DNA from: Hemerocallis citrina | Lineage: Eukaryota; Streptophyta; Magnoliopsida; Asparagales; Asphodelaceae | Assembly (NCBI GenBank): GCA_017893485.1 | Contig: CM030358.1 | Coordinates: 151,293,368 to 151,357,367, forward strand | Length of the DNA: 64,000 nucleotides | Reading direction: 5' to 3' | In this document: piece by piece, positions 4,459-27,210 of the stretch | Numbering within the stretch: the first letter of the stretch is position 1 | Layout: each line of letters starts with the position of its first letter | Notes under the pieces: generated by a model | What the model was told of the DNA's origin: nothing | Database searches by the model: none | What the model saw: only the letters and a program-made list of their open reading frames with translations | Position numbers and translations under genes: made by a program

Positions 4459-4461
<3 letters not shown>

Positions 4462-4574
4462 TGTTGTTCGGTTGCAAACGGGCCGGAACGGGTCGGTTCG
4501 CACGGACCCGTGCGAACCTCGATCTGGACCGTTGGATCGAAGATCCAACGGTTCAGATTTTTTTTCATAAAATC

Positions 4575-4668
4575 TTGCCTTAACCCGTTCTTGCCAACGA
4601 CGGGTTAAGGCAAAATTTAATAAAAAAAGTTGGCCTTAACCCGTTCTTCGGAATAACGGGTTAAGGCT
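4575..4668. repeat. Pair of AACCCGTT hairpins in left TIR
   Basis: Two perfect or near-perfect dyads, each with arms of the form CCTTAACCCGTT and its complement separated by 9-12 bases. The same pair is present in the right TIR (27000-27095), and the core recurs in four internal arrays. Placement near the ends is what one would expect of transposase-binding or cleavage-linked sites, but that is inference. Confidence 0.85.
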
Positions 4669-4957
4669 ATATTTTTCATTTTCGTCGACTTACAGTTCGT
4701 CTTCTTTCTTCCGCTCTCTTCTTCTTTCTTCGACGAACCCAGACCCAAACGACGGAAAAAAAAAAAACCCCTAAAAAAACCCTAGCTCCGACGATCGAAA
4801 CCCTAGAACTCCATCTTCTCTCCCAACTCCGAAGATTGAAACCCCCTAACTCCGACGTTCGAAACCCTAGCTTCTCTTCCCCTCTTCGGAACGAAATCGG
4901 AACCCTAGTTCTCTTCCAAAACCCATTGCTTGGCTCGATTTCGACCTACTCCGTAAG
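4662..4957 (+). promoter_or_regulatory. Putative promoter and non-coding first exon of the transposase gene, in left TIR
   Basis: A TATATTTTT motif at about 4669 is followed by a T/C-rich leader full of CCCTAG-type sequence, typical of plant 5' UTRs. It ends at a possible splice donor (CTCCGTAAGGTATAC, 4949-4963). The nearest good acceptor is TTTCTTAG at 7027-7034, two bases before the transposase ATG. The inferred intron of about 2.07 kb contains all five 341 bp units. The same leader and donor are present in the right TIR for the PMD gene. Confidence 0.55.
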
Positions 4958-5199
4958 GTATACACTATTTCTTTACCCCAATAATGTACATTTGTATTTT
5001 TTTTTGAATTTGTGTGTAGTAATTTATTTAGAAATTGGGAAAAAATTTAAATGCGTTAGTAGATTTTGGATGTAGATTCGGGTTGACCTTAAGTATATTC
5101 AATTGCCGAATTACGTTGCTTGCATTAGTAACTAGTAGAATTAGAATTGTATATACGAAATTAGTTATAAACTTTTCAGTGCGGTTATGGTTGAAAACC

Positions 5200-6935
5200 C
5201 TGCAAACGACCGTAAAAAAATACGAAACTTTCCCAGTAGGTTCGTCTCACGTAGTACAAGCCAAACCCACTTGTAGAAGCGAGTTTCGACTCACGGTTCG
5301 AGAGTTACGGCCGCGTATTGCTTACGGTCGGAAAAAACCAAGTATTGCGGTGCACGGCCGTATATCGCAAACCGTGACTCGAAACTCGCTTCTACAAGTT
5401 CGGGTGGCTTGCCCTATGTGAACCTGACCAACTCTGAAAGTTTTAAAATTTTCGGATGCCGTTTGTGCGGTTTTCTCAACTTCCTCGCATTATAAGTTTC
5501 AGACTTAGAATTCTTTAAGTTTTTGTAGATTAGAAAACCCTCCAAATGGCCTCCAAAAAATACGAAACTTTGCGATTTGGTTGGTGACACGTACGAGAAG
5601 TGACCCGAAGTTGTAGAAGTGAATTTCGACTCACGGTTCGAGAGATACGGCCGCGTATCGGTTTTGATTGGAAAAAAACAACTTAAGCCGGTACACGGCC
5701 GTATCTCCCGAACCGTGAGTCGAAACTCGCTTCTACAAGTTCGGGTGGCTTGCCCTACGTGAATCCGACCTAGTCGGAAAGATTTATAATTTTCGGGTAC
5801 CGTTTGCGCGGTTTTCTCAACTTTCTCGCACTACAAGTTTTAGACTTAGAATTTTCTAAGTGCGGGTAGATTAGAAAACCCTTCAAACGGCCTCCCAAAA
5901 ATACGAAACTTTGCGAATTGGTTGGTGTCACCTAAGGGAACCCAAACCAACTTGGAGGGTTGTGTTTTTCGACTCACGGTTCGAGAGATACGGTCGCGTA
6001 TCGCATTCGGTTGAAAACAACTATTATAATGCGGTATACGGTCGTATCTCGCAAACCGTGAGTCGAAACTCGCTTCTACAAGTTCGGGTTGCTTGCCCTA
6101 CGTGAATCCGACCAATTGGGAAAGTTTTAAAATTTTCGGGTGCCGTTTGCGGGATTTTCTCAACTTCCTCGCATTATAAGTTTCAGACTTAGAATTTTCT
6201 TAGTGCGGGTAGCTTAGAAAACCCTTGAAACGGCCTACAAAAAATACGAAACTTTGCAATTTGGTTGGTGTCACCTACGAGAAGTGAACCGAAGTTGTAG
6301 TAGTGAATTTCGACTCACGGTCCGAGAGATACGGCCGCGTATCGGTTTTGGTTGGAAAAAAAACAACTAAAGCCGGTACACGGCCATGTCTCGCAAACCG
6401 TGAGTCGAAACTCGTTTTTACAAGTTTGGGTGACTTGCCCTACGTGAATCCGGCCTAGTCGGAAAGTTTCTTAATTTTCGGGTGCCGTTGCGCAGTTTTC
6501 TCAACTTCCCTGCACCACAAGTTTTAAACTTAGAAATTTCTAAGTGCGGGTAGATTAGAAAACCCTTCAAACGCCCTCCCAAAAAATACGAAACTTTGCA
6601 GGTAGGTTGGTGTCCCCTATGAGAAGCCCCCCAAACTTGTAGAAGTGATTTTCGACTCCCGATTCGAGAGATACAACCGCGTATCGCTTTCGGTTGAAAA
6701 AAACTATTATAAAGCGGTATACGGTCGTATCTTGCAAACCGTCAGTCGAAACTCCCTTCTACAAGTTCGGGTGGCTTGCCCTACGTGAATTCCACCTAGA
6801 TGGAAATTTTTGTAATTTTCGTATGCCGTTTGTGTGGTTTTGCTCTATTTCCTCGCATTTTAAGTTTGAGAATTAGATATTTATAAGTGCGGACCGTTTA
6901 CAAAACACTTCAAACCACCTCCAAATAGTACGAAA
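5200..6935. repeat. Tandem array of about 341 bp units with internal dyads (left, five copies)
   Basis: The marker TCGACTC occurs at 5286, 5626, 5969, 6310 and 6652, spacing 340-343 bases. Each unit is itself a fold-back: a GAAGCGAGTTTCGACTCACG arm, ending in a segment with ATACGGCCGCGTATCG, mirrors the second half of the unit. Open frames crossing the array (for example 5035-5421) translate both arms and have no domain. Confidence 0.9.
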
Positions 6936-7036
6936 CTTTTCTCCTTTTCAAGTTGTGGTGGCTTGCGCAGTTACAAAAACACCAAATACAGCGGTTTAGT
7001 ACCCCTAACTATTCTCCTCTTCACCGTTTCTTAGGT

Positions 7037-9375
7037 ATGGACAGTTTCGAAGGAAGTTCTGTTGCCGGGGATAAATTTGTTCGTGCACAACCACTTGGCG
7101 AGTATCTTCCTCATGTTGACGAGCACCTAAAACCGAAGATTGGTATGACATTTCCCACCCTTGATGATGCGGAAAAATTTTATTCATCATATTGCAAATG
7201 TGCGGGATTCGCTATGCGTAAGGGTGGAAATAAATATAAGGGAAACGATGTAGTGGATAAATCATACGTCTGTAATAAAGTCGGGGAGTCACCGAATAGC
7301 TATAATGAAACCAGACGAGGTACAACTTCTAGAACGGGTTGCAAAGCTTTTGTCCGTGTGAAAATAAACCCACATAGTAGTTCACAAAGTAATACATGGA
7401 TTATTTATTCGTTAAATGAAGCACACAATCACGAATTCACTTCACCCGGTAGACGTCACTTGCTACCTCGAAACCGTGAATTGACTAAGACAGTTAAAAA
7501 TGTAATTGGTCAAATGACCGAAGCTAATGTCCCTGTATGCAAACAAATGCTATTCTTTGAAGCTGCAAGTGGAGGTAATGAGAAAATTGGATTCACCGAA
7601 ACCGATGTAAGAAATTTCAAGAGAGACGAGATGGAAGGTTTAAAAGGTCACGACGGACAAATGCTACTTGAGTTTTTTGAATCGAAAAAGGCGACCGATC
7701 CCTTATTCTATTTTGACTACCAATGTGACCCCGAAGGGCGATTGACACATTGTGTGTGGGTGGACGGTATCGCCAGAAATAATTACAAAGTATTTGCGGA
7801 TGTTCTTTGCTTTGACGCTACCTACAACACAAACCGATACGGGATGTTGTTCGTACCATTTGTTGGATTCAACCATCATTGGCAATCAATATTCCTAGGT
7901 TGTGGGTTCATCCCCAATGAGACGGCATCCTCATTTGAGTGGTTCTTTGAAAAGTGGCGTGCTGCAATGCCTTTTGATCCGATCAACATCGTGACAGATG
8001 AGGATCGCGGGATAACTTCTGCAATTTCCAAAGTTTTCCCAACCACGTCACATAGATATTGCATTTGGCATATTTTGGATAAGCTACCGCATGAAGTTCG
8101 AATGTCGAATAACGTTGATGAGTTCAGGGATGCTTTGAAGACTATTATTTATACGGCGGAATTTAAAACAGAATTCGAACAGAAGTGGAAAAATTTGATC
8201 TGTCAGTACAAATTAGAAAATAACAGATGGTTGAAGGAAAAATTTGAGATCCGTGAAAAATGGGCCCCGGTGTACGCAAGAGACTCATTTTGGGGGGGCA
8301 TGCTGAGTACCCAACGTAGCGAATCGCTACATTCATCCTTGAAGCACCATACTCATAAAAAGTACTCACTACATGAATTTGCTATCATCTTTGACCGACT
8401 CTTAGTAAAACAAAGACACGATGAACTTAAAGAAACACATCGTAATCGCGAGGAGCGGCCAAAATTGAAGACCGAGTGGGCATTGGAGTCACAAATGGCA
8501 GGGACATACACTTTGAAGATTTTCTACAAATTTCAACAAGAAGTGGTCAAAAGCTTATTACTTAATGTGAGTTTAATTGCGAGTATGGATACACCGGATA
8601 GTGCAGCTTATTCTGTAACAGTTTGTGGAAATTCAGAACCGGGGAGGGTGATTTCTTATTGTAAAATCAGTAAAATTGCTAAATGCCCTTGTTCCATGTA
8701 CTACTTCGTAGGCATTCCCTGCAAACATCTACTTGCAGTTATTCGGTTCACAGATCACACCGCACTACCTGAACAATATATTTGTAGGCGATGGACCAGG
8801 GATCAAATGAGGAGAAGCAGTATACCGGTGGGCAATAATATGGGCGACAATTTTGCATCGCGTTATTGCGAACTTAGTATGCACTCAAGACATATGGTCG
8901 ATCTTGGTTGTTCTTCAGAGCGAGGATACAAGTACATGCTCGACCACATGCTGAAGGGAATTGAAGGCTTTGCGGAGATTGATCCAGTGAACAGCACACC
9001 ACACGAAGGTAGCGCACAACCTGAGAGTGGTGGACAAGCACATACACATGCACATGTAGGTGACCCTGTACAGTGCACCACAAAGGGTAGGCCTAAAGGG
9101 AAACGGTTGAAGTCGGTAAGAGAATGCCAAAAAACAAAGAGGCCAAGACTTTGCAGGACATGTCTTCGTGTCGTAGGTCACGATTCACGGAATTGCCCCA
9201 GAAATTTAGGAAGGTATTATATCAGACATTTTGTATTTGTTTATTCAACTCAAACTTTGTTATTTTTGGTCAGTACTAACTCATTCTTCCTTCTTTTTTT
9301 AGTGGATCGGTGGGCAATGAAGAAGCTCCAAACGCGGTAGAGAGTGATGCTGACGAAGGCGAAGGTTCGTGCTAA
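7037..9375 (+). CDS. FAR1/MULE-type transposase (two exons, 749 aa)
   Basis: This should cut and join the ends of the large MULE in the nucleus. I choose ATG 7037 because it follows a good acceptor (7034); the frame is open further upstream but enters TIR repeat. An 89 bp intron at 9214-9302 (GT...AG) restores a C-terminus that ends GEGSC at TAA 9373. Order of domains: FAR1 DNA-binding region (residues about 36-132), MULE catalytic core with D in CFDATYN (about 258), D in VTDEDRG (about 318), HRYCIWH (about 339) and E in TQRSES (about 425), SWIM zinc finger with CPC and CKH (about 550-565), and a terminal CX2CX5HX4C knuckle (about 706-720). No stops interrupt it, so it is potentially active. 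Plant FAR1/FHY3 transcription factors share this architecture, but position between TIRs makes it a transposase. Confidence 0.92.
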
Positions 9376-9920
9376 GGGGGCTTTAAGAAATTTATTAATA
9401 TGTATGTCATGTCAAAATTTGGAAATAATCACCGAATAATTGCCAAATTTTAAATTGATTCGTGCCGATTTATTTGAATTTCGACTGGATTGTTAACCTT
9501 TTTTTTTTCTCCCTGGTATAGGTCCGGAATGAAACAAGTTTAACGCGCCCAAATGGAAAGACGCACCGCCTTGAAAAGTTGTGTTATTTTTGGTTTGTAT
9601 ATATGTGTGGATAATTGCCGTGTTCTTGTTTGGTACAAGTAAATTAACCATGTTTTTAATTATAATGCAATTTCTGTACGTCAGTGTATTTTGTGTATTT
9701 GTGAACAAAGTTATATTACTATGCATTTTGACCAGGCAATTTGGTTGTGAATGCTTATTGCAGTCGGAAAATGTAAAATTAGTAGATGTATACAATTTGG
9801 GGAACTCGTTCTGTTTGGGAATTTTGTGTTAAGGAAAATTGTCTGCCTGCTAATGTGAACAGTTTTTTATTTGTGTTGGCGATTGTGTATTTCGTGCATA
9901 ACCAATACTGCACCTGTAAG
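9376..9920. other. Transposase 3' flank
   Basis: T-rich sequence downstream of the stop. A CTGGTATAG acceptor-like site near 9523 may belong to a 3' UTR intron. The 9581-9832 frame is AT-rich and hydrophobic with no domain, so it is not called. Confidence 0.4.
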
Positions 9921-10372
9921 TTCGGCCAATATCTCTTTTCTTAACCCGTTCTTGACGATAACGGTTTAATACAATCTAACCCGTTATCGGAAATAACGGG
10001 TTAAGGAGATAGACATTGGCAGTACTTTGGTTCAATACTTCACATACGGTGGTTTTAGTTCGGCCAATATCCCTCTACTTAGGCCGTTCTTATTGGTAAC
10101 GGTTTTATACAATCTAACTCGTTATCAGGAATAACGGGCTAAGGAGCTAGATATTGGCAGTCCTTCGGTTTAATAATACACATGTAGGGATTTAGTTCGG
10201 CCAATATCTCTCTACTTAAGCCGTTGTTGGTGGTAACGGTTTTATACAGTATAACACGTTATTAGCAATAACGGTCTAAGTAGAGAGGTATTGGCAGTAC
10301 TTCGGTTCAATACTTCACATATAGCGGTGTTAGATCGGACAATATCTCTCTACTTAATCCGTTGACACATTT
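9921..10372. repeat. Array of AACCCGTT hairpin units (three full, one cut short)
   Basis: Units at 9921-10026, 10057-10164 and 10195-10300, with a truncated one at about 10328-10372. Each is bounded by inverted CCAATATC and GATATTGG-like boxes. Each contains two inner dyads built from AACCCGTT or a variant and its complement around loops of about 10 bases. Spacing is about 137 bases. The fourth unit is cut off in its first inner hairpin, marking a breakpoint near 10370. Confidence 0.85.
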
Positions 10373-10974
10373 TAGAAGCAATACTAAAACTGAGTTGTTC
10401 CAAACGAAATAAATACTGTGTAGTTGGCATCCAGATGATTGGTACTAAACTTGTATGGTTAGTGATGGTAACTATCTAGTTGATGTTATCCAATCTTAAA
10501 TAACAAATGTACGTACACACTGCCAGAATTCAAGTGTTGTGTGAATGCATTACTATGTAATTTGCTTTGAAGATGATGTTAGTAAACTGTCAATGTTAGT
10601 GATGATATTCAAGCTCAATTTTTAAATCGATATTCAATTCTCACTGTCAATGTTAGTCCTGTGTGATGATATTCAAACACCAAGGTTGGCCGTTATGTTT
10701 TACACAAAGTAAATTCACTTTTCTCCTGGCAACTCATATTAGTCCTGTGTGAATTCTATTCGCTGTGCCATTTTGATTGTACTAACTCTGTTGCGGATTT
10801 TATCTATTGTTCTACCATCTAATATGAAGGTTGGCACTTCTCTTATTGCTTGAAATATACATAAAATTTATCTTTCATTATTCATAAAATTTATATACCA
10901 TTACCTTCACTTAAACTTATATACCAATACCTTAACTTAAATTTATATACCATTACCATTACCTTCATTTAAAT
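10373..10974. other. AT-rich sequence leading to a Helitron 3' end
   Basis: No gene seen. It lies between the truncated hairpin unit and the Helitron terminus at 11008, so it may be Helitron body. I could not find a matching 5' TC end. Confidence 0.4.
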
Positions 10975-11008
10975 ACGTGCCGTACGCACGTCTCACGGGC
11001 AATCCTAG
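10975..11008 (+). mobile_element. Helitron 3' terminus (plus strand)
   Basis: An ACGTGC/GCACGT hairpin (10975-10980 and 10986-10991) followed 13 bases later by CTAG (11005-11008) and host T. It is the plus-strand equivalent of the Helitron ends at 384 and 4015. Only the 3' end is identified. Confidence 0.65.
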
Positions 11009-13230
11009 TCCTCACATACAATCCAGAAAACTCATTCTCACAATCTCTTAAAAGTTCACAATTTCACAATTCTACAAAATTTACCACTTTCGCAATATTC
11101 AAGCTTCAAGTGTACCACCTACAAAATCTTCACGCTTCAAGCCATTAATGATCCTACAAAATCTTGAAGCTTCAAGATACAAAATCTTCATCTTCACTGA
11201 ACCTACAAAATCTTCATCTTGAAGCTACAAATTTAGAAAATCTTCAAGCTTGAATCCTGAAAGCTTCAAGCTTCAAGTGTACCACCTACAAAATCTTCAC
11301 TGAACCTACAAAATGATGACAATTTCACAATCTCAAGTATTAGGAAAACATAATAGATTTAAAAAAATTTTGACAGAACCTCCCCTAAAATATTCGCCCT
11401 TTTACAAAAATTCCTTACGGAATTCTGCTAACAGTTAAATATATGACATCACACGCAATAAATATAAATCCTCCCCAGGCTCAACCGAGCAACATCACAC
11501 ATGCAACATATATATATGGCTCTGGGGGAAAAAATCAGAATATAATGCAAGATACAAAATATAAACCAAATATTCTTTTGAAAATGTAATAATTTTTTTG
11601 TAAAACCTTCGAAAAACATTTAAAAAACCAAACAATATACCCAATACTCCACAAAATTGCGGGTACGGGTATTAACATAACTATATTATATCATTATTAT
11701 ATACAGTTACTTACATCATCTCCCAAAATGCTAAATATTACAATTTTTACAACCTCCACCATACTAAACACCAACCGAATGAATGAAAAAAATAATTACA
11801 GGGTTGTAGAAGAACACAATGGTTGAGGTCTTCAAAATAGAACACAATGGCTGAAGTAAAAATGAGAACAACTTATTACTAGTATCTTCGTGTTGTAGAT
11901 TTTATTTAAAAAAAAAGAAGATACTTATATGGCCATATTGGCAGTGATGTCATCCATTGCTGTTCTTTCATTAGAGCAATTGACCTGTATATAAAGGAGG
12001 GGAAACATATTAACTAACCAATTGAAGTTCTTCAATTGGAGCAATTGACGTTGTAATTATTTTAACAAACCAATCAAGAAAACATATTAACTACTATTGA
12101 TTACTACGACCTATCTTCTTTGATGATTAACTACAATGAGATACTTGTGTAAAATTGTGTAGATTATTTCAGTTTTAGAAGTGTTATAGAGAAAGATGGG
12201 GCTATACAGAAAGATCGGAAGAAGCGGTAAGACAGTAAAATTGTGTAGCTATTTCAGTTTCAGAAGTGAATCTGACAGTCAGGAGTTTTTCAAAGATCAC
12301 TTTCTTCTAAGGAAAGTATGTAAATGCGAAGAATTCAAAGGACAGATTTGAAAATATAAATCATTTTAGGGGACTGTGTAAGAAGCCTTTTAAGTATAAT
12401 GGAAATAATATGCAATAGAAGCACAGTGAGCATTGGAACAAATTTTGGGTACGGTAACATAGTTAACTGAATTCTATCATAAGGCAATCTCAAACGAGAC
12501 CAAAGTACTGCTTTGTTCTTAATACCATCATACTATTCTCGATTAAGTATCCATGTGACCTAGTTCATATCTAAAATTTAAATTTAGTTAATCAACCTTA
12601 AAGTAAAACTCTTCCACCTCAGAAATTGGATCTAAAAAACATTTACAATTGACAAATATGTCCTTTCTGAAGAGAAAAAACTAAGGTGTGCAGACAACTC
12701 CAAATGCACGGGCAACTTCTTCAGACTGAATGAGAAGGACAATCCGAGTTTTTATGAATGTTGAATGCTTATGAAATAGCAAAATTCGAGTTGTACTTCG
12801 GTCCATTTAAAATTCAAAAATACACAAATTATTATGCTAAAAATAATGTTAATGTTGAAATAGCAAAATTCAAAAAATGTGTGCATAAACGATAATAATG
12901 CGTGCATAAGAGATAATATTCAAAGGTACATGTCTAAGAAAATATTGCTTAATTTAAGCTTGTTAATTTTGTGTAATCTACGTTTATCAAATTTTCTTCA
13001 CCTAAAAACAAAGTATTTTCATAATATCATACATCATAATTGGAAAGTCAAATAATTCTGAAGTATTCATAAATAAGTATAGAATTTTGTTTTTAATAGG
13101 TTCTTTATAAATGAGAAGTTATTGCTGGTATTAGGATTAGTATTTAGGAAGAATGTGACTAACAACACTAAACATAAGCAACAACACAAAACGAAGAAAT
13201 ACCGAATATTTAAAATAAGAGCAGACTTAC
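11009..13230. other. AT-rich stretch, no gene seen
   Basis: Positions 11085-11320 are a loose repeat of CTTCAAGCTTCAAG and CTACAAAATCTTCA blocks. The rest is AT-rich with no frame of interest. It may be body of the minus-strand Helitron that ends at 15194, whose other end I could not find. Confidence 0.4.
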
Positions 13231-13306
13231 TTTCATGTAGTTCTCAAAGCGCTCACTGAAGAAATGATACGCAAACTCGGTTTCCAAAAATTCTTGCAAC
13301 TTATTA
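13231..13306 (-). pseudogene. Captured exon 2 of an unidentified gene
   Basis: A 76-base exon-like segment with a donor GTAAGT directly after it (13230-13225) and an AG before it. It encodes NKLQEFLETEFAYHFF and then SERFENYMK. The reading phase fits the exon copies at 13743-13830 and 14083-14170, giving a join through ...LFGPS. I do not recognise the protein. With no start or end visible it is a fragment. Confidence 0.55.
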
Positions 13307-13742
13307 CTTGGACCTGTGCACAAATTAAAGTGCATTGGTATCAGAATCAATCTGTTTTCATAGATAAGTGAGATTTTAGATTTTAGATTCTCAAGTGAGA
13401 TTCTCAAGTAATATTTTGAATAGATAAGAGTCCTCATACTGATCATGGTTGACCATGCAGACATTCTCAGGTGAGATTTTAGATTTTAGATCTAGATCAT
13501 GCTTGACCATGCAGACATAATTCTGAGTATCTAGATCACTTCTAAGCCAAGCTTCCAAAATCAAACCTCATATGGGCATATCGCGATGCGATCAAACTCT
13601 ACCTAGTTGATCTATAACTCTCATATTTACAATCACACCACACAAAATCATCACCAATACAGATACTCTTCCGAAAAAATAATGTAATAATAAGAAAACT
13701 AAAACTAATTCCAACTCGATATGAATGTGTCCATGTTCCTAC

Positions 13743-13830
13743 CTGGGTCCAAACAGAATGTTTTCGAGCTCCAACAACTCCTCATCCGTCGCCAATTCAA
13801 GCACTGATCTCAATTCCGGATCAAAATCCC
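13743..13830 (-). pseudogene. Captured exon 1, copy A
   Basis: An 88-base segment bounded by TTTTTTTCAG and a GTAGGA donor. It encodes DFDPELRSVLELATDEEL followed by LELENILFGP. Its hydrophilic, acidic composition and exact splice borders argue for a real exon taken from a host gene. A near-identical copy lies 340 bp to the right. Confidence 0.55.
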
Positions 13831-14082
13831 CTGAAAAAAATCCAACACAATCAAAACTTTTTCACGACCCCTCTCAAATCCTTAAAAACCCAGAAGAAAA
13901 AACAACCAAAGATGCGCACTTTGTGAGGTAGAAGTGATCGCGGCCGCCCGCTATAACTCTCATATTTACAATCACACCACACGAAATCATCACCAATACA
14001 GATACTCTTCCGAAAAAAAATAATGTACTAATCGAAAACTAAAACTAATTCCAACTCGATATGAATGTGTCCATGTTGTTAC

Positions 14083-15000: not shown

Positions 15001-15024
15001 GGGGGTGTTTTTGGTTTTTGGGGG

Positions 15025-15394: not shown

Positions 15395-15955
15395 CAAGTA
15401 CATGCTCGCTTTCTTCTCGAATTGGAAGGAAGGACTGCTGACTCTGCCTGATTTTGGATAGATAAGTAGTTCCGGTTGTAGGCGACCATCCTTGAACTGA
15501 AGAGGCTTGCCTTGAATGTATAAATAGCCGGTTGCACCCCCCTGCATACAAGACCCGTTCTCTACTGTTACACAGAATGCAAAAATCCCCTGCTTTCGTC
15601 GGCCGGAGTAGTAGTGGGTGTTACCGTATATTCGAAGTACTTAACGACTTCTTGACACGCACTCCTCATAATCGTGAAATTTGTGGCACGATTGTGAGGT
15701 GTGCATGCCAAGAAGTCGAAAAGTACAATGAATACACCGTGACACCCAGCACTACTCCGTCCGACAAAAGCAGGGAATTTTTGCATTCTGTGTAACAATA
15801 GAGAACGAACTTGTATGAAAGGCGTACAAATGCTACTTATGCAAACACATCTAAAAGCTAAAAAAATAGAAGACCAAGAAAAACACTGTGGGAAAAAAAG
15901 GCAGAGCAAGCGGCCCTCCCAAGAACGGGTGATAGAAACCGAGCATGCACTTGTA
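15395..15955. repeat. Long fold-back, copy 1
   Basis: The core at about 15544-15830 is a near-perfect hairpin: two arms of about 135 bases converge on CCTCATAATCGTG and CACGATTGTGAGG with a 10-base loop. Weaker pairing continues outward. The same sequence gives similar frames on both strands, which is why paired open frames appear here. No domain is recognised. Confidence 0.85.
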
Positions 15956-16329
15956 CACTGAAACAAGTCATCTCTACTCCTGCATCTTCATACACAAGAA
16001 CAATTGTAGGCGACCATCCTTGATCTCAAATTTCTCCTGCATCTCATTTGAGTTCTCTTGAAGAGAAGAAGAGAAGTCATATTTGAGTTGATGAGAGTCT
16101 AACTCTCTCAGTTATAGGCAATGAAAAAGAAAAAGTGTAGAATGATATGATAGCCCACTTGGGTTTCTCACTGCTCATCAATAGTCCGAGAGATACGGGT
16201 CAATACAAGGAGAAGGCAAAGGCTATATGGATCACTGCTCATCAATAGGGAGGAGATATGGGTCTCTCAATTAAGACAATGAATGCTGAAACATGAAGGT
16301 GAAGAAGACAATAATGATAAACTTTGTTA

Positions 16330-16392
16330 GTCTTAACCTAATCCTAACCCTAACCCTAGACTAACCCTACTTTAACCTAACCCTAACCCTCG
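16330..16392. repeat. Short CCCTAA-rich patch
   Basis: Irregular CCTAACCCTAACC-type runs over about 60 bases. The unit is six bases, not the usual plant CCCTAAA heptamer, and it is interrupted. It is best described as a simple repeat and not a telomere remnant. Confidence 0.6.
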
Positions 16393-16394
16393 TT

Positions 16395-16960
16395 CCAAAA
16401 AACCCCGTAATTTAATTTTTTTTATTTTGTAAGACTTAATATGGTAACAAATTTAGAGTGCTTAGTTATTGGAGAAAAAATGGATAATTATAAAAATAAT
16501 AAACAATTTATGGACATATGAATGTCACCTTGCACAGTTCTGGAGACAGTTCTCGCAAAGAGTTAAGAGAAATTTTTAGAAAACCCAATATTAGCTGAAC
16601 ACCCTAAACCGTGATTCACGAGAACGGCTTATATAACCTTTAACCGTTGTTCCCAAGAACGGGTTAAGTACTTCCATTTTTGGGGGTATAGTTTGAAAAC
16701 TTGGATAGGGCCCTGGTAATAATACTCTCCATAACCCGTTCTTGCGAACAGCGGGTTAAGTTCGTTCACACGTTATTCCCAGCGACGGATTAAGTACTGT
16801 GATATTAGCAGGACTTTGATCTAAGGGCGATTAAATGTCTGCCAACATCGCTATACTTAACCCGTTGTCATGAAGAACGGATTAAGGCAATATAACCCGT
16901 TGTTAGACGTGACGGGTTAAGTATATCCATATTAGCAGAACTATACCAAGACTTGGTCTG
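16395..16960. repeat. Inverted-repeat arm with hairpins (left)
   Basis: Pairs with the reverse complement of 18650-19200 over about 550 bases. It holds an AT-rich outer part, a conserved GCACAGTTCTGGAGACAG segment, and several AACCCGTT hairpins (16600-16925) bounded by ATATTAGCAG boxes. The outer part recurs a third time at 21178-21345. Confidence 0.8.
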
Positions 16961-16981
16961 TACCAAGACTAGGTTTTTAAC

Positions 16982-17105
16982 GATCTCGTAAGCGATACGC
17001 GGTTGTATCTCACAAACCGTGAGTCCAAACTCACTTCAACAAATTGGTTTGGCGTCTCGTAGGTGACACCAACAAAACCTGACAGTTTCGTAATTTTTTG
17101 GGACA
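16982..17105. repeat. Isolated half-unit of the 341 bp TIR repeat
   Basis: Carries GCGATACGCGG, CAAACCGTGAGTC and GGTGACACCAAC in the order seen in the TIR arrays, but with more changes. It links the middle of the element to its ends. Confidence 0.7.
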
Positions 17106-17267
17106 CCATCAAGTTAGACATATTTTCGTTTGTTGATACATGTACAAGATATTGCATTCACAACAGGCTATTTGCAGAACCAAATTTTATTCATATAAAG
17201 GAACATTACATACTGGCACTAACATATTGTTTGAAGATACAGAAATTTGAAGTTGAAATTAATTTAG

Positions 17268-17781
17268 TATACAAGTGCATGCTCGCTTTCTTCTCGGAAG
17301 TGGAAGGAAGGACTGTTGACTCTGCCTTTTTTTGATTGCATAAGTAGCCAGCTGTACCCCCTGCATACAATTTCGTTCTCTACTGTTATACAGAATGTAA
17401 AAATCCTCGGCTTCCTTCGAAAGTTAGTGGTAGTGGGTGTAACCGTATATTCAAAGTACTTAACGACTTCTTGACACGCACTCCTCATATTCGTGATATT
17501 TGTGGCACGATTGTGAGGTGTGCATGCCAAGAAGTCGAAAAGTACCATGAATACACCGTGACGCCCACCTCTACTCCGTCCGATGAAAGCCGAGAATTTT
17601 TGCATTCTGTGTAACAATAGGGAACGAATGTGTATGAAAGGCGTACAATTGCTACATATGCAAACACACCCGGTCTTGCAAAAAAAATAGAAGACTAAAG
17701 AAACGAACACTGTGGGGAAAAAAAGGCAGAGCCAACGGCCCTCCCTACCGCTTGAGAGAAACCGAGCATGCACTTGTACCC
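17268..17781. repeat. Long fold-back, copy 2
   Basis: Same fold-back as 15395-15955, with pairing that can be followed out to TACAAGTGCATGCTCG at both ends. About 100 bases of flank (from 17157) also match the flank of copy 1 (from 15226), so a larger segment was duplicated. Confidence 0.85.
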
Positions 17782-18110
17782 TCTGCATACAAGACCCGTT
17801 CTCTACTGTTACACAGAATGCAAAAATCCCCTGCTTTCGTCGGCCGGAGTAGTAGTGGGTGTAACCGCATATTCAAAGTACTTAACGACTTCTTGACACG
17901 CACTCCTCATAATCGTGATATTTGTGGCACGATTGTGAGGTGTGCATGCCAAGAAGTCGAAAAGTACCATGAATACACCGTGACACTCACCACTACTCCG
18001 TCCGGCGAAAGCAGAGAATTTCTGCATTCTGTGTAACAATAGAGAACGAATGTGTATGAAAGGCGTACAAATGCAGCTTATGCTAACAATTGTAAAAACT
18101 AACAAATTAG
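17779..18110. repeat. Long fold-back, copy 3
   Basis: Starts directly at the end of copy 2 with CTCTGCATACAAGACCCG and repeats the core hairpin. Its loop region matches copy 2 more closely than copy 1. Copies 2 and 3 are therefore in tandem. Confidence 0.85.
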
Positions 18111-18649
18111 AAGACTAAGAAAAATATGAAGAAAAAAGAGAGAGAGCCGGCAGCCATTCTCTAATCTTGAGCTTTGTCTTCTACAACTTCAGCTTCAACT
18201 TCAGCTTCAGCTTCATCTTTGTCTTCCCTATTGGGAACTAAAGATGGGTTTTGAAGAGAAGAGGAGAACATTGATAGGGCCCTGGTTGCAAACAGTTAGA
18301 AGAGAAGAGGAGACCCCTAACTCAAATGAGGAGACCCCATTTGAGTTCTCCTGGCAATAGAAGGAGAGGAGACTCCCTCTTGAAGTGCATGAGGGAGAGG
18401 AGACTCCCTCATATAGATGGCTAACCGAATAATTGGGGAGCATGACATGACCAAAGAATGTAGAGAGGGGTGTTGATAAATAGGGAATGGATTAGCAGGG
18501 AACGGATGGCCATGGCTGGATTAAAAATAATTAAAAGATGACAAGATGCCATCAAATGTTAGTCAACGAAGTTTTGACACTCCATGTTGAAAAATTAGCA
18601 GTAAGGACAACAATTGTCCCCACCAAATTGATACACATCTCAACTTGTA

Positions 18650-19200
18650 CAGTGTCTGTAAATTAGCCCTAGTTAACCCGTTATTGGTGATAACGGTTTA
18701 AGTACAACTGACCCGTTATTGGTGATAACGGGTTACGTACAAACCAAGCCTTGATATAGTTCTGGTAATATCGATGTACTTAACCCGTTCTTGGTAATAA
18801 CGTGTTAAGTTAACTTAATCCGTTCTTCGCAAGAACGGGTTATGTAGAGTGTTATTGCCAGGGGGCTCTCTAAGTTTTCAAATTATACTGCCAAAAATCG
18901 AAGTACTTAAACCGTCCTTGGGAATAACGGATTAAGTTAACTTAACTCGTGATTACCAAGAACGGTTTAAGGTGTTGAATAAATTTTGGGTTTTCCAAAA
19001 ATCTCTCTTCGCTCTTTGCGAGAATTGTCTCCAGAACTGTGCAAGGTGACATTAATATGCCCGTAAATTGTTTATTATTTTTATTAATTTCCATTTATTC
19101 TCCCGTAACTAACCACTCTAACTTTATTACCATAATAAGTTTTGTCAAGGTAAAAAAATTTCCTTAAACGGTTTTTTGTACGAATCGTTAACTTGTAGTA
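18650..19200. repeat. Inverted-repeat arm with hairpins (right)
   Basis: Inverted copy of 16395-16960 with about six hairpins between 18665 and 18985. The two arms enclose fold-back copies 2 and 3. The block 16395-19200 therefore looks like an internal inverted-repeat unit or a nested non-autonomous element, though no target duplication is visible. Confidence 0.8.
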
Positions 19201-19259
19201 AATTAACAGGCCGTTCTAAATTCCCACACTAATCAATCCATCAATCCATCAGTCAATCA

Positions 19260-20990
19260 AATATATCTACTCCCACATGTTAAGGGAATCTACATGTGTT
19301 ATTTCTTCAATATGGGCCACATGTGAGATCTACATTCGATTTTGTTCTAATATGGGCTACATGTGAGATCTACATGTGGTTTTTCTAATAATAAACTTGT
19401 TCTAATATGGAGAAAAGCAGAAGTGACAGCCTGTCAACCGCAAACTAGAATGAGGACCAGCAAGAACCCATAAAATGATTCTTATACTTGCTTCCACAAT
19501 AAGTGCATCCCTCATGTACCAACGTTAGGCAATCCACATATAGTTTTTACCATACATGGACTACATGTGGGGATTTAGATGTGGTTTTTCACCCACATAG
19601 GCTACATGTGTGATGTACATGTGGTTTTTTGCCTGTATAGGATACATGTGGGATTCTACATGTAGTTTTTCCCCATACAGACTACATGTGGGAATCTACA
19701 TGTTGTCTGTACCGAATAGGCTATGTTGTCATTTAAAACAAGTGACAATCACAAGCCTTTAAAAAATTCACATTAAGTAATCTCATCACATGTACAGATC
19801 CAGTTCTTGATAGCCAATTAATCTCATCTGAGGACGAGATGCGGATCACGTGACGCGTCTGGTTAGGCATATTCATGAGGGATCTCAGCACCGCAATTTT
19901 GTCTGAGGACCAGCAACAAAATCGCAAAATGATTCTTATCCGGCCTTCCACAATTTAGATACACAATTCTGTCAGCTTTGGTAAGCAGACTCTTTCTCGC
20001 TGAAGAGAACTGTAAGATATATGGAACACTAACAGGTTTAACAGTCTTACAAACTGTAAGTTGTAGCAGAGATTTTACCGTTTCATATCTCTCCATTAGG
20101 GATACCATCATCATCACAGTTGATCCAAATATGTATTGGAATTTTTTTACATGCATGTGGGGATCTACATATGGCTTGCTCCATGTATAGGCTACATGTG
20201 GGGATCTACATGTTTTTTTTTCCCCATGTGGGCTACATGTGGAGATCTAAATATTTTTGTACATGTGTTAAAGCCTACATGTGGCATGTAAATGTTTTTT
20301 TTTCACACAATCTTTACATATGGGGATGTACATTTGGTTTTTCCCCCAAATAGGCTAAATGTGGGGATGTACGTGTGGTTTTTGCTCCATATAGGCAACG
20401 TTTTTTTTTAACATACACCTTAGTGGGAAAACGCACCAAGCTAAACAAGTAGAACTCAACACCCGCCTACAACATCACATGTACGTCCCTACATATAGCT
20501 TTTCCATAACGGCTACATGTGCGAATCCAAATGTGGATTTTCCCCCATTTATTAAACAGGGGATCTTTTGCACAGACAGTAGAAAACATATTTGTATTGT
20601 CATTTCTGGTAAAAGATGGCAGTTTTTGTTAGCCCTCTATATTAAACCTGGAGGCACTGCGCTCAATAATAACACAGAGGGGCTTTTCCATTAGGAATAT
20701 TTTCATCATTACAATTATTCCAAACCCTAACTTGGTCTTTTTGTACGTTGATGTGGGGATCTACATGTGGTGTTTCTCCCACATGGGCTACATGTGGGAT
20801 CTAAAAGTGGTATTTCTGATATTAAACTTGTTCTACTATGAGAAGAAGCAGAAGTGAGAGTCTATCAACGGGAAATTAGAACGAGGACCGACCAGATAAC
20901 CTAAAATGATTCTTGTCAGTCCTCCCACAATAAATGCATGCCCCATGTACCCACATTAGAGAGTCTACAAGTTTTTTTCCCCTCGTATAG
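19260..20990. repeat. Dispersed GGCTACATGTGGGGATCTAC repeats
   Basis: About twenty imperfect copies of a 35-50 base unit built from ACATGTGGG, ATCTACATGTGG and TTTTTCCCC, separated by unique sequence. A second motif (AAAATGATTCTT near CCACAAT) recurs at about 19474, 19926 and 20901. Frames in this stretch have no recognisable product. Confidence 0.8.
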
Positions 20991-21177
20991 TGCACATGTG
21001 GGATGTGCTCAATTTTAATACATTTGTCTGTATTTGAATATCCGTTTGATGTGGTCAAATTTATATTGGTTAGTTACGTGGCTAGCCAAGAAATTAAAAA
21101 AATAAATATAAACAGGGAAAAAACAAATACATATGACTTTTTTTTTTTTTTTTTTTTTACAACAGAACTCGTAATTT

Positions 21178-21345
21178 TTTTTTTTTTTTTACTTTCACAA
21201 AACTTATCATGTTACAAATTTAGAGTGGTTAGTTGCGGGCGAATAATGGGAAAATTATAAAAATAATAAACAATTTATGGGCATATTAATGTCACTTTGC
21301 ACAGTTCCGGAGACAGTTCTCGCAAAGAGTTAAGAGAAATTTGTA
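21178..21345. repeat. Third copy of the inverted-arm outer segment
   Basis: Matches 16430-16590 in the same orientation, including TTAGAGTGGTTAGTTG, the AATAATAAACAATTTATGGG stretch and GGAGACAGTTCTCGCAAAG, and leads straight into the next hairpin array. Confidence 0.75.
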
Positions 21346-21357
21346 GAAGTGGTTAGT

Positions 21358-21816
21358 TGCTGCCAATATCTCTCTACCTAAGCCGTTGCCGACAAGAACG
21401 GATTACTTTAACCTCACCCGTTGTTGGCAACGACGGGTTAGGATGACCCATATTGGCAGCACTTGTTTCTGTATGAATTATATTGCTGCCAACCTCTCTC
21501 TACTTAAGCCGTTGTCGCCAAGAACGGGTTACGTTAACCTAACCCGTTGTTGGCAACGACGGGTTAGGATGACCCATATTGGCAGCACTTTCGCCTGTAT
21601 GAATTATATTGCTGCCAATCTCTCTCTACTTAAGCCGTTGTCGCCAAGAACGGGTTAAGTTAACCTAACCCGTTGTTGGCAGTGACGGGTTAGGAAGACC
21701 CATATTGGCAGCACTTGTTTCATGTACTACTTGAGTAGTTTTCCAAAGGACTGACAATATCTCTCCACTTAACCCGTCCTTGCTGATAACGGGTTAAGTA
21801 CAGAGATATTGGCAGC
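21358..21816. repeat. Array of AACCCGTT hairpin units (three full, one single-hairpin)
   Basis: Full units at about 21358-21462, 21484-21588 and 21610-21714, spaced about 126 bases. Each is closed by GCTGCCAATAT and ATATTGGCAGC and holds two inner hairpins (GCCGTTGTCGCC...AACGGG type and AACCCGTTGTTGG type). A fourth at 21749-21816 has one inner hairpin. The ends pair with each other, so each full unit can fold as a three-way junction. Confidence 0.88.
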
Positions 21817-22180
21817 AATATAACTAATTAAATGTGGTTCACAAAATAACAAATGAAAGCACATCAAAGTAAATAAGACAACATATATATTCAAAAGAAA
21901 CTTGAAGGCGTACAAAAGTCCAATAACGACCAACTACTTAATTACTTGAACTGAATTCAATATTCACAAAATCCAAGAGTTTACAACAAAATTATACATA
22001 TAAGACTGCACATGGCCAAAAGACAATTATTCACAAATGAAGCCGTTCTCGAATTTGGCTTGCATCCGGCGCACCAAAATTCACCTACAACAGTTTATCA
22101 ACGTAGAAACAAACAATACGTTAGTTACTGCAGTGACAAAAACACCAACCAAAAGACACGCTATTACAGAGTATTACAGA
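21817..22180. other. 3' flank of the PMD gene
   Basis: AT-rich, no frame of interest. It probably contains the PMD 3' UTR, read on the minus strand. Confidence 0.4.
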
Positions 22181-24391
22181 TTACCGTCTACGGCCAGTCC
22201 GCTTGCGACCGCTTGGTGTGAATTGTTTGGGAGGTTGCCTGGTCCTTTTAGGATTTCGCCGTGCGCGATGTGTTTGGGGAGAGTCAGAATCATCCGACGA
22301 CTCTTCCTCATCAGTACCCTGTTGACGACCAGGGATTATAATTGCCCTACTAACAACCTGTTTTCGCCTTAAGGGTGTTGGCGGCACATTGGCGCTCAAA
22401 TAGGCCTCAACCTGTGGACCTTCACCCGCGTCCTCCAGAGTACGACGGCACGGGGCTAACATCTCCCGGATTACCGTCTTTAAGCTCTCGGGTATTCTAG
22501 TCTTCAGGTGGCGGGCAGCTGTTCGGACAACCTCCCATGCGTTGTCAATCTACAGTTGGTGAAAAATTCCAATTTAAACATCATTCAAAATTAGTGTACA
22601 TCAATTGAACACAGTACAAATATACAAACTATATGAAATTGGACTGACCGCTTTTCGATGTGCCTCAGCCCTCGGTTGGTACATCGGCTGGGAGGAGGAA
22701 TATGCTGGAGGTGGTTCTACCTGGGCTTCGGGAATCGGAAGTTGCACCCCAGCTGGTACGGCGACCGTTCGAGAAATGAACAACCGGGTTATTCGCTTGT
22801 ACCACATCATGTATGCCTGCTGGAGGGACCCATCGTATGGTCTCGCGACAAACATCAAATTCAGTGTCATTTGATGTCGCATGGTGTTCCAGTTGGCTAC
22901 GTGGTAACGATGAAAATCAGCCCAATCGAAGTTGGGCACCCGTCCCGTTCCCCTAACCTCGTGCAACTTTTTATCGTACGACCTGACATCGGGAATCTTC
23001 TGTTGATATCCGAATTGCCGCAAGACCCGGTCAGGATACTGGAACTCCACAACCGAAAAGTTCACAAGAGGTGCTGCCGTCAACCAAAGGGATCTGTCTA
23101 GGCAGACTGGAGGAACGCGTTGCAACCTATCGGCCGAGTACGGTTCCCATGTGACGAACTCGTCCCGCATGTTGTCCAACTCATCTCTGTAGTAGGTCAG
23201 CGAATGGCGTGGGTTATCGGTCCACGTGTGTCGGCCGGCCCAATATGCTCCTACAGGAGGTAACAACTCTGCTGCCCCTGGGTCGGCCAAAAATTCCGGT
23301 ATAGGCTGAGTAATACGGGGACGTCCGATGTGGATGCGTTCCCAACTCCATATCTGCATCAGCACCATTGGGTCACCCATCTGTGCGCCACCTAAAGAAC
23401 ATATGCACAAACTCCTGTATAGTAGCGCCAGTGCCGCACTCCCCCAACTATAGCGACTCGCATACTGGAAATCCTCCAACAACCGTAGGTACATCAACGG
23501 CACGGTTGATCCGGATGAGTTCGGGAAGATAAGTCCCCCTATCAAACTAAAAATGTATGCACGTGCATAGCACACTAGGTCAGCCTCACCCGACTCGGGG
23601 TTCAAATATCCCTCCTCGAACTGGTATTTTAACCAGGTGATGTAAAGTGATTTACCCTCGAAAGCGTCATCCATCACTTCTTCCTCCGCTTTTTGTTTCG
23701 CAGCTTCTATTTGTTCATTCAATAAATCTTCATCAGAATCTGCGGGGGCATTTTCGCGGATATTTTTTTCGGCCTTCTCTTGTTCTTCAAGAACTACCAA
23801 CTGCAAGTCGATACCGAGTAAGTCCCGAACGACTTCAACTCGATCGAAGTCCATGTTTCCCGTCACGGCAACCCCATCGATTAGTAGTCCTGTTATCATT
23901 GCCACATCCTGCAGGGTCACAGTCATCTCACCCACAGGCAGGTGGAATGTGTGGGTCTCCGGCCTCCATCGCTCGACTAGAGCTGTGAGGAGTGGCCGAT
24001 CTAGCTTCACAGAGTGAATGAATCTTGCTCCATAGAAACCGGCCTCTACCACGTACGGCGTGATACGTTCATCCCAAGGAAGAACTGTGTGCTTCCGAAA
24101 ATTTAGTTTTCTATCGGACCCATTCCACACGGCTTCCGATCGGTGTTTGCCCTGCAGGGTGAGTACACTTGTGTCCACGGGTCCGGGTGATGTAACCGAG
24201 GACGACGGACCTGCCTCAGCCGATGTGGATTGACGGCCACCAACCTACACGAATAAATATAACAAATGTTATTATTGAGATAATGTTACATGTTTGTATT
24301 TAAAACCAATAATAGTAATCGATCTTACCTCAGTAGTTGGTGCGCCACTGGTGTTCCCGGACTCGATTCTTGGTTGCCTTGTTCTAGCCAT
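22181..24391 (-). CDS. Plant mobile domain (PMD) protein, three exons, 675 aa
   Basis: Exons 24391-24329, 24244-22649 and 22549-22181 join in frame with GT...AG introns. The ATG at 24391 follows a TTTTTTACAG acceptor. The protein starts MARTRQPRIESG. PMD hallmarks at about residues 80-150 are the ERWRPETHTFHLP stretch, then GEMTVTLQDVAMITGL. The domain runs to about residue 470 and contains an acidic, coil-prone insert (about 174-218). The C-terminus is basic (RRNPKRTRQPP, then GRKRTGRRR), a likely nuclear signal. PMD proteins such as MAIN and MAIL1 act in gene and transposon silencing in Arabidopsis, and PMD genes are known passengers of transposons. Here it reads inward from the right TIR, in the mudrB position. 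Its role in the element is unknown; helper for transposition or escape from silencing are possibilities only. Confidence 0.9.
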
Positions 24392-24499
24392 TTAGATACC
24401 CGTCTGTAAAAAATTAAAAAGTTGTTAAAAAAGATGACAACAAAACAAACATACCGAGATTATACTGAAAAACGCATGAATGAAAACAAAAAAATCTAT

Positions 24500-26465
24500 A
24501 AAACTTTACGACTATGTCGGATTCACGTAGGGCAAGCGACCCCAACTTGTACAAGTGAGTTTCGACTCATGGTTTGCGAGATACGGCCGTATACCGCTTA
24601 ATTAGGTTGTTTTCCAACCTCCAACCGATACGCGGCCGTATCTCTCGAACCGTGAGTCGAAATTCACTTCTACAACTTCGGGTCAGTTCTCATAGGTAAC
24701 ACCAATCAACTCGCCAAATTTCGTATTTTTGGGAGGTGGTTCGAATTGTTTTCTAATCGGCCCGTTTTTTAAAAAATTCTATGTCAAAAACTTCTCACTT
24801 GAGCAATTGACGCAATACCCCGCAAACGGCATCCGAATATTTTAAAACTTTCCGACCAGGTCCAATTCACGTAGGGGAAGCCACCCGAACTTGTAGAAGC
24901 GAGTTTCGAGTCACGGTTCGCGAGATACGGCCATCTACCGCTTTACTCGGTTTTTTTCCAAGCATAAGCGATACGCGGCCGTATCTCACGAACCGTGAGT
25001 CGAAACTCACTTCCACGAGTTGGTTTGGCTTCGCGTAGGTGATACCAACCAAATCGCAAAGTTTCGTATTTTTGGAAGATCATTTGGAGGGTTTTCTAAT
25101 CTACCCGCACTTAGAAAATTCTAAGGCTCAAACTTGTAATGCGAGGAAGTTGAGAAAACCGCCCAAATGCCATCCGAAAATTATAAAACTTTCCGACTTG
25201 GTCGAATTCACGTAGGGCAAGCCACCCGAACTTGTAGAGGCGAGTTTCGACTCACGGTTTGCGAGATACGGCCGTCTACCGCTTTATTTGTTTTTTTTCG
25301 AACCAAAACCGATACGCGCCCGTATCTCTCGGACCGTGGGTCGAAATTCACTTCTACAACTTCGGGTCAATTCTCGTACGTGACACCAACCAAATCGCAA
25401 AGTTTCGTATTTTTTGGAGGTCGTTTGCAGGGTTTTCTAACCTACCCGCACTTAGAAAATTCTAATTATAAAACTTATAATGGGAGGAAATAGAGCAATA
25501 CCGCGCAAACGGCACCCGAAAATTTTAAAACTTTCCCAATTGGTCGGATTCACGTAGGGCAAGCAACCCGAACTTGTAGAAGCGAGTTTCGACTCACGGT
25601 TTGCGAGATACGACCGTATACCGCTTTATAATAGTTTTTTTCAACCGGAAGCGATACGCGACCGTATCTCTCGAACCGTGAGTCGAAACTCACTTCTACA
25701 AGTTGGTTTGGCTTCTCCTAGGTGACACCAACCAAATCGCAAAGTTTCATATTTTTTGGAGGCCGTTTGAAGGATTTTCTAATCTACCCGCACTTAGAAA
25801 ATTCTTAGGCTCAAACTTGTAATGCGAGAAAATTGATAAAACCGCCCAAATGGCATCCAAAAATTATAAAACTTTCCGACTTGGTCGGATTCACGTAGGG
25901 CAAGCCACCCGAACTTGTAGAAGCGAGTTTCGACTCACGGTTTGCGAGATACGGCCGTCTACCGCTTTACTCGGTTTTTTCCCAACCGTAACCGGTACGC
26001 AGCCGTATCTCTCGAACCGTGAGTCGAAACTCACTTCTACAAGTTCGGGTGGCTTATCGTAGGTGACACCAACCAACTCGCACGGTTTCGTATTTTTTGG
26101 AGGTCGTTTGAAGGGTTTTCTAATCTAATCTAACCGCACTTACAAAATTCTAATACGAAAAACTATCGTGCGAAGAAGTTGAGAAAACCGCGCAAACGGC
26201 CTCCAAAAACCCTCGAAACTTTCCCACTTGGTAGGATTCACGTAGGCGAAGCCACCCGAACTTGTAGAAGCGAGTTTCGAGTCACGGTTTGCGATATACG
26301 GCCGTGCACCGCTATACTTGGTTTTTTCCAACCGAAAGCGATACGCGGCCGTATCTCTCGAACCGTGAGTCAAAACTCGTTTCTACAAGTTGGTGTGGCT
26401 TGTACTACGTGAGACGAACCTACTCGGAAAGTTTCGTATTTTTTTACGGTCATTCGCAGGGTTTT
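24500..26465. repeat. Tandem array of about 341 bp units with internal dyads (right, six copies)
   Basis: The marker CGTGAGTCGA or a one-base variant recurs at about 24651, 24994, 25335, 25677, 26018 and 26364, spacing 341-346 bases, in inverted orientation to the left array. Each unit has the same internal dyad around GATACGGCCGT. Units differ by scattered substitutions, so the array is not freshly amplified. Confidence 0.9.
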
Positions 26466-26705
26466 CAACCATAACCGCACTGAAAATTCTAACTAATTTC
26501 GTATATACAATTCTAATTCTACAAGATACTAATGCAAGAAACATAATTCGGCAATTGAATATACTTGAGGTCAACCCGATTCTACATCTATAATCTACTA
26601 ACACATTTTAATTTTTTTTCCAATTTCTAAATAAATCACTACACACAAATTCAACCAAAAAAATACAAATGTAGATTATTGGGTTCAAGAAATAGTGTAT
26701 ACCTT

Positions 26706-27000
26706 ACGGAATAGGTCGAAATCGAGCCAAGCAATGGGTTTTCGAAGAGAACTAGGGTTCCAATTTCGTATCTAGGGTTCCGAAGAGGGGAAGAGAAGCT
26801 AGGGTTTCGAACGTCGGAGTTAGGGGGTTTCAATCTTCGGAGTTGGGAGAGAAGATGGAGTTCTAGGGTTTCGATCGTCGGAGCTAGGGTTTTTTTAGGG
26901 TTTTTTTTTTTTCCGTCGTTTGGGTCTGGGTTCGTCGAAGAAAGAAGAAGAGAGCGGAAGAAAGAAGACGAACTGTAAGTCGACGAAAATGAAAAATATA
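26706..27000 (-). promoter_or_regulatory. Putative promoter and non-coding first exon of the PMD gene, in right TIR
   Basis: Inverted copy of the left-TIR promoter and leader: the TATA-like motif near 26994, the T/C-rich leader, and a donor near 26710 (minus strand). The acceptor TTTTTTACAG lies at 24403-24412, 12 bases upstream of the PMD start codon. Both genes of the element would therefore carry the same leader. Confidence 0.55.
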
Positions 27001-27207
27001 GCCTTAACCCGTTATTCCGAAGAACGGGTTAAGGCCAACTTTTTTTATTAAATTTTGCCTTAACCCGTCGTTGGCAAGAACGGGTTAAGGCAAGATTTTA
27101 TGAAAAAAAATCTGAACCGTTGGATCTTCGATCCAACGGTCCAGATCGAGGTTCGCACGGGTCCGTGCGAACCGACCCGTTCCGGCCCGTTTGCAACCGA
27201 ACAACAC

Positions 27208-27210
<3 letters not shown>

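Follow-up and report, generated by a model that had tools for sequence, protein, structure and literature searches.

A FAR1-type Mutator-like element with a convergent plant mobile domain gene in Hemerocallis citrina, and a possible accessory role for the plant mobile domain protein

The window element and its two genes

A 64,000-nucleotide stretch of the daylily Hemerocallis citrina genome (contig CM030358.1, forward-strand positions 151,293,368 to 151,357,367; hereafter the window) was analyzed. A single transposable element occupies window positions 4459-27209 (22,751 bp). Inside its mirror-image arms lie two convergent genes, one for a FAR1-type transposase of the Mutator-like element (MULE) kind and one for a 675-residue plant mobile domain (PMD) protein. 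The element and its copies are called family A. A first-pass annotation of the window, made from the letters alone, had described an inverted-repeat element with these two genes, and its coordinates, size, gene lengths and convergence were all as claimed. It had also reported that both genes are free of stops and that both terminal inverted repeats (TIRs) are present; the frames are indeed open, and the 2.5-kb arms, measured inward from the element ends, are inverted repeats of 88.7% identity over 2,499 columns.

The outer TIRs are more alike than the arms as a whole (95.4% identity over 732 columns, and approximately 99% in the outermost 430 bp or so). In each arm, the outer TIR of approximately 720 bp is followed by a tandem array of 341-bp units, and the gene starts approximately 100 bp past the array. 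The earlier claim that each gene lies next to its own TIR was thus right in placing each gene in its own arm, but the TIR proper adjoins neither gene, being separated from it by the array. Since both subterminal arrays (5178-6939 and 24491-26492) match their own reverse complement at 65-77%, each array forms a foldback chain. Four hairpins were read in the left TIR (4489-4670), and AAACCCTA boxes occur three times in the left outer TIR and four times in the right one. The whole element is embedded in a (TA)n microsatellite. The features, in window positions, are as follows.

4407..4458, no strand: (TA)26 microsatellite, left insertion flank; intact ends abut TA runs
4459..5177, + strand: left outer TIR, four hairpins followed by a promoter-like region that holds three AAACCCTA boxes
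4958..4959, + strand: candidate splice donor of a putative noncoding leader exon (AAG/GTATAC), a site present in 20 of 20 fetched family-A loci
5178..6939, + strand: left subterminal array, its 341-bp units showing inner dyad symmetry
7037..9340, + strand: FAR1/MULE transposase gene, 767 aa, with Pfam match and open frame
9919..10363, no strand: hairpin-motif cluster (AACCCGTT/AACGGGTT dyads), approximately 600 bp 3' of the transposase gene
16396..16942, no strand: internal hairpin-motif cluster
18676..19178, no strand: internal hairpin-motif cluster
21183..21799, no strand: hairpin-motif cluster 3' of the PMD gene, motifs 385-650 nt past its stop
22181..22549, - strand: PMD gene exon 3, basic C-terminal tail
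22649..24244, - strand: PMD gene exon 2, plant mobile domain
24329..24391, - strand: PMD gene exon 1 (MARTRQ...)
24491..26492, - strand: right subterminal array of 341-bp units
26480..27209, - strand: right outer TIR, hairpins as on the left; candidate leader donor at 26702
27210..27401, no strand: (TA)n microsatellite, right insertion flank

The transposase frame runs open from the ATG at 7037 to the stop at 9338-9340. Its product scored above the Pfam cut-offs for the MULE domain (PF10551, 98.4 bits against 27.6) and for FAR1 (55.9 bits against 28.1), and SWIM stayed under its cut-off (16.7 bits against 19.6). The MuDR-type DNA-binding domain PF03108 gave no match in this protein at E up to 1, FAR1 being found instead. 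By its transposase domain, the window element belongs to the MULE superfamily, and it is a FAR1/Jittery-type MULE. Long TIRs and many dispersed near-identical copies, which are features of the superfamily, are also present in the window family. The target-site duplication of about 9 bp expected of the superfamily is not readable for the window family, as its copies sit in TA arrays.

The PMD gene on the minus strand consists of three exons (24391-24329, 24244-22649 and 22549-22181) joined across GT-AG introns that were positioned by eye. The PMD domain (258 bits) is located in exon 2, and the protein retains 74 of the 79 columns in which 44 other PMDs show a conservation of 90% or more. With the exon-2 frame as the query, no related solved structure was found at E up to 1. 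The two genes lie on opposite strands with their stops 12.8 kb apart, so that separate polypeptides are encoded and not a fusion. This 12.8-kb middle holds 13 open reading frames (ORFs) of at least 100 aa, and none of the nine scanned, the other four being overlapping ones, passed a Pfam cut-off. Within it, at 15512-18155, a unit of approximately 300-450 bp recurs in several copies and in both orientations.

Copies, relatives and selection

The genome searched comprised 3.775 Gb in 701 sequences. A 54-base terminal pattern of family A occurred 154 times exactly, and the reversed control did not occur. From 100 listed of the 154 termini, 34 TIR pairs were built by joining neighboring plus and minus ends less than 60 kb apart. 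PMD exon 2, taken from a list of the best 81 of 24294 candidates by similarity, lay inside 30 of the 34 pairs; a pair may exceed one element, as in a case among the 30 that extends over 52 kb, with PMD and transposase on the same strand. The other four pairs comprised a frameshifted PMD (C6), an 8.7-kb derivative with the transposase only, and two without an assigned outcome. Viewed from the transposase, a convergent PMD was found beside 46 of the 59 scored genes, at a distance of 7.0-19.5 kb and mostly 17-18 kb. Since the lists hold only the best 81 PMD matches and the best 59 of 15690 transposase candidates, this count is a lower bound.

Eleven further copies were fetched by their ends, and nine of them carry both genes at approximately 99% identity. 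Counting the window copy, 10 of 12 copies have an intact transposase, 6 of 10 have an intact PMD gene, and 6 of 10 keep both genes intact; among the 81 best PMD exon-2 matches, which were ranked by protein similarity, 75 contain no stop. In all nine further copies that have PMD exon 1, it lies approximately 2.8 kb from the TIR end. TA runs adjoin 22 of the 22 intact ends read in 12 copies, with one run interrupted and with one truncated and one unfetched end left out of the count. The element is therefore one unit with near-identical TIRs and two inward genes, inserted into TA microsatellite and present in many near-identical two-gene copies. These results bear out the proposal of the first-pass annotation that the element follows the MuDR plan with a PMD protein as its second gene, as the genes are convergent, the 5' end of each is at its own TIR arm, and the pair is kept across copies. 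That other copies of the TIR family never contain the PMD gene is contradicted by the 30 TIR pairs that hold it. A separate insertion at the flank of the PMD gene was rejected, as none was found in the window or in the further copies and the start of the gene lies 100 bp inward of the arm array.

A search with a grass PMD, in which the best 57 of 20360 candidates were scored and four loci were fetched, revealed two more PMD-bearing families in the same genome. Three of the four loci represent family B; in its elements of approximately 8 kb, a PMD gene lying at one TIR converges with a MULE transposase gene lying at the other, and this holds for all three copies. The family-B transposase has the MuDR-type domain PF03108 (DBD_Tnp_Mut, 28 bits, tested in C7) and is readable only across more than one frame in all three copies, owing to introns or damage. 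Perfect target duplications were found in two of the three copies (9 bp in C11 and 9-11 bp in C5); in C7, the script that read those ends located no right end. The window transposase gave no tblastn match in the family-B elements. The remaining locus, that of family C (L031 with L037, C2:294831500-294849500), has a PMD protein with a mudrA-like N-terminal region, and this region shares 41.7% identity over 151 columns with the family-B transposase at its N-terminus. For family C, a candidate third MULE, tblastn gave no transposase match within 18 kb.

In a tree of 51 PMDs, families A, B and C clustered in a single clade (100/97). It belongs to a larger group of 14 (100/98), in which the remaining named rows all come from monocots; two further monocot rows, oil palm and pineapple, fell outside this group. 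The grouping of A with B alone was weak (82/59). A quick tree of 121 rows, which did not include B and C, placed the window PMD on a long branch among monocot PMDs. Read by eye, the PMD genes of A and B agree in the positions of both introns, in having a splice acceptor immediately ahead of the ATG and in the likeness of their first exons. One PMD gene thus probably lies behind both families, whose transposases are from different MULE groups. The PMD proteins start with MARTR in the window and with MARTR, MACTR and MAHTI in the family-B copies. Histone H3 begins with ARTKQ, and the MARTRQ of the window exon 1, as well as the MARTR of one of the three family-B copies, resembles this start, possibly by chance.

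The two halves of family B have different histories. C5 and C11 were 0.67-0.88 identical in the PMD half, against 0.87-0.96 along the transposase gene, with a synonymous divergence (dS) of 0.43 for PMD and 0.16 for the transposase. An exchange of halves is a plausible route by which PMD could have entered a FAR1-type element. The family-B loci L029/L035, L030/L033 and L032/L036 look mosaic, their PMD and transposase halves differing in divergence.

Purifying selection, which the first-pass annotation had proposed as a check, was apparent between older lineages only. For PMD exon 2 of family B (six copies), the ratio of nonsynonymous divergence (dN) to dS was 0.13-0.29 in 14 of 15 pairs and 0.69 in the fifteenth, at a dS of 0.012, and all six stretches are free of stops. 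When C5 was compared with the other two copies, PMD dN was 0.065-0.071 against an adjacent noncoding divergence of 0.30. The family-B PMD thus looks to be under constraint; dN/dS for the family-B transposase was 0.36-0.49. Among recent family-A copies, there was no signal for PMD and no significant one for the transposase, which showed 29 nonsynonymous differences, 15 synonymous ones and 1 stop against 31.6, 11.4 and 2.1 expected (11 copies; P 0.13). Expectations for both genes were taken from the same mutation spectrum, with length-changed copies dropped (1 of 10 PMD genes and 1 of 12 transposases). Copies decay freely after insertion, and constraint is visible only between the older lineages.

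AACCCGTT or AACGGGTT was found 24 times in the window and 23 times within the element, where approximately 1.2 occurrences are expected under an order-1 model. These sites lie in the TIR hairpins, in four inner clusters and at one spot in the transposase gene, and the dyad form in family A is TTAACCCGTT...AACGGGTTAA. The motif recurs approximately 600-654 nt past the transposase stop in 12 of 12 family-A copies and 385-758 nt past the PMD stop in 9 of 10, the tenth (C1_111) not having been located by the anchor. Family B has a palindrome of its own, GGTCTTT(C/G)AAAGACC, which occurs 9, 10 and 10 times in three copies (chance level not computed) and sits in each TIR as well as in the stretch that separates the ends of the two genes. 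The motifs of A and B have the same layout in different letters.

Known systems and the role of the PMD gene

Maize MuDR carries the convergent pair mudrA and mudrB, each transcribed from the TIR on its side. The window element resembles it in having two convergent genes, each from its own TIR arm, and differs in its FAR1-type transposase and in having PMD in place of MURB as the second protein, a comparison that did not extend to the MURB sequence itself. The combination of a MULE transposase with PMD has been recorded before, and the first-pass description of a little-described system was not supported as worded. In Table 1 of Dupeyron 2019 (PMC6446971), most members of MuDR-type MULE groups 47-50 are entered with PMD, often in antisense orientation; the abbreviation used there was taken as plant mobile domain. 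Family B looks like a member of these groups. The window element shares with them the MULE transposase and a PMD frame often on the opposite strand, but differs from them, as tabulated, in its FAR1 transposase, its 22.75 kb and its 341-bp subterminal arrays. PMD was first described with a rice MULE (PMC5418596), and the capture of PMD-C by MULEs as transposase fusions, with an anti-silencing role proposed, was reported by Ikeda 2017 (PMC5418596). The window element likewise has PMD in a MULE, but as a separate convergent gene.

TA-targeting Jittery-like MULEs have also been described (PMC4486113). Among them, AutoMuTAnT is like the window element in its Jittery-like transposase, its insertion in TA microsatellite and its foldback TIR modules, and unlike it in being described as 4.9 kb long with a single ORF. 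In the same table of PMC6446971, group 36, which has FAR1 in the N-terminal part, is given one ORF, and PMD is not listed for it; the window element departs from this single-ORF pattern, its second gene being PMD. It is unlike a Pack-MULE in having its own intact transposase. Within the sources compared, the presence in a FAR1-type MULE of a PMD gene that is separate and convergent is new, as are the element's size, subterminal arrays and copy number, and so are the signs of selection on PMD in the sister system and the parallel motif layout.

A functional parallel is offered by the VANDAL elements of Arabidopsis. Their VANC proteins bind repeated motifs that are specific to the family and lie within the element itself, and they remove methylation (PMC5735166). 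Both systems have an accessory gene in a MULE and family-specific repeated motifs in noncoding parts. However, VANC is another protein, its motifs are described as short and often tandem, and binding and demethylation were demonstrated for it (PMC5735166), whereas the PMD system is known here from its sequence. The likeness of the motif layout to VANC is suggestive only.

We give an even chance to the reading that the element is an autonomous two-gene MULE in which PMD is a selected accessory acting in trans on the element's own motifs, likeliest by opposing host silencing. A common TIR promoter would drive both genes by way of a noncoding leader exon, whose splicing would bridge the 341-bp array; candidate acceptors for the conserved AAG/GTATAC donor lie at 7034 and 24404. 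The transposase would cut and paste the element into TA repeats. The PMD protein would be kept by selection, would act on the element's DNA as an accessory factor and would have no part in the cut-and-paste chemistry. Its likeliest target would be the palindromic motif particular to the family, which is found in the TIRs and downstream of both genes, and its likeliest effect would be to counteract silencing by the host, in the way that VANC protects VANDAL elements. The first-pass annotation had suggested that the PMD protein may help the element to move or to avoid silencing, and both effects are still at the level of inference. Since two MULE types keep PMD in the same place, with family motifs and with selection signs in type B, the counter-silencing idea is directly testable.

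A minor but real possibility is that PMD is instead a transposition helper in the role of mudrB, working with the transposase in integration or end pairing. PMD sits in the element where mudrB does, mudrB is apparently required for integration according to PMC6446971, and the shared N-terminal region of the family-C PMD and the family-B transposase could be a contact surface. However, the window also contains a FAR1 MULE (40996-49237) that retains pieces of a transposase but lacks PMD, and the group-36 FAR1 MULEs are tabulated with one ORF and no PMD (PMC6446971, Table 1). The FAR1 transposase type can thus probably do without PMD, and since such PMD-less elements are the published norm, anti-silencing was preferred over a helper role. 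The absence of constraint among recent family-A copies, together with the frequent carriage of host gene pieces by MULEs (PMC8616336), would fit a functionless passenger captured from the host; the same gene with the same intron places and position in two MULE types, the low dN/dS in family B and the conserved columns kept in the window PMD make this quite improbable, and the passenger explanation was disfavored on these grounds.

It is unlikely that the family-A PMD was captured independently from a host gene, with A and B converging on the same plan. A host gene could lie inside the A, B and C clade, as the comparison included no Hemerocallis host PMD gene, and A groups only weakly with B alone; against this, the three families form one clade apart from the other monocot PMDs sampled, and A and B agree in both intron places and in a similar first exon. 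An origin of the PMD gene from a Ty3/Gypsy element nested in the MULE has next to no probability. Gypsy elements carrying PMD do exist (PMC5418596), but no LTR-like (long terminal repeat) direct repeat pair was seen around the PMD gene in the window, no gag or pol domain was found in the nine internal ORFs scanned with Pfam, and exon 1 keeps its distance from the TIR end in the further copies. This origin was rejected.

Several observations weigh against the accessory reading that we prefer. Recent family-A copies show 36 nonsynonymous differences, 15 synonymous ones and 4 stops in PMD, with 34.5, 17.1 and 3.4 expected (9 copies), and PMD is intact in fewer family-A copies than the transposase (6/10 against 10/12). 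Two copies, C4_108 and C10_194, have a transposase with no PMD seen, the C10 copy having been fetched in part only. In family B, the closest pair with noncoding sequence, C7 and C11, gave a weaker sign of constraint (PMD dN 0.037 against noncoding 0.072). Moreover, the family-B copies were drawn from the list of the best 57 of 20360 ranked by protein similarity, so that intact genes are favored in the sample. The palindromes could serve as sites for the transposase, or they could be foldback modules with a structural role. The host PMD proteins MAIN and MAIL1 silence transposons, and an element-borne PMD could therefore do several things.

Beyond the accessory role in one element, we speculated that PMD may be a mobile anti-silencing module that crosses MULE lineages with unlike transposases, each lineage pairing PMD with its own palindrome array in the TIRs and downstream of the genes. 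Such a module would be VANC-like and would have arisen separately, from a host silencing protein; we regard this wider proposal as rather doubtful. If true, a mobile sequence-specific self-protection module would account for the burst of intact copies seen in daylily. MAIN, MAIL1 and similar plant silencing proteins have a domain in common with transposons, and elements may use PMD against the host.

Neighboring elements

Other elements lie to the right of the family-A copy. LTR-like direct repeats at 27398-28002 and 37687-38339 (85%), with a gag-like ORF between them, begin at the right TA flank of the MULE. The PMD-less MULE at 40996-49237 has inverted TIRs of 93-98% and is inserted in a TA/GA microsatellite; its FAR1/MULE transposase pieces, on the minus strand, are 35-36% identical to the first transposase. 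An LTR-type retrotransposon is represented at 61301-64000 by fragments of its reverse transcriptase and RNase H, and a zf-RVT piece lies at 39594-40616.

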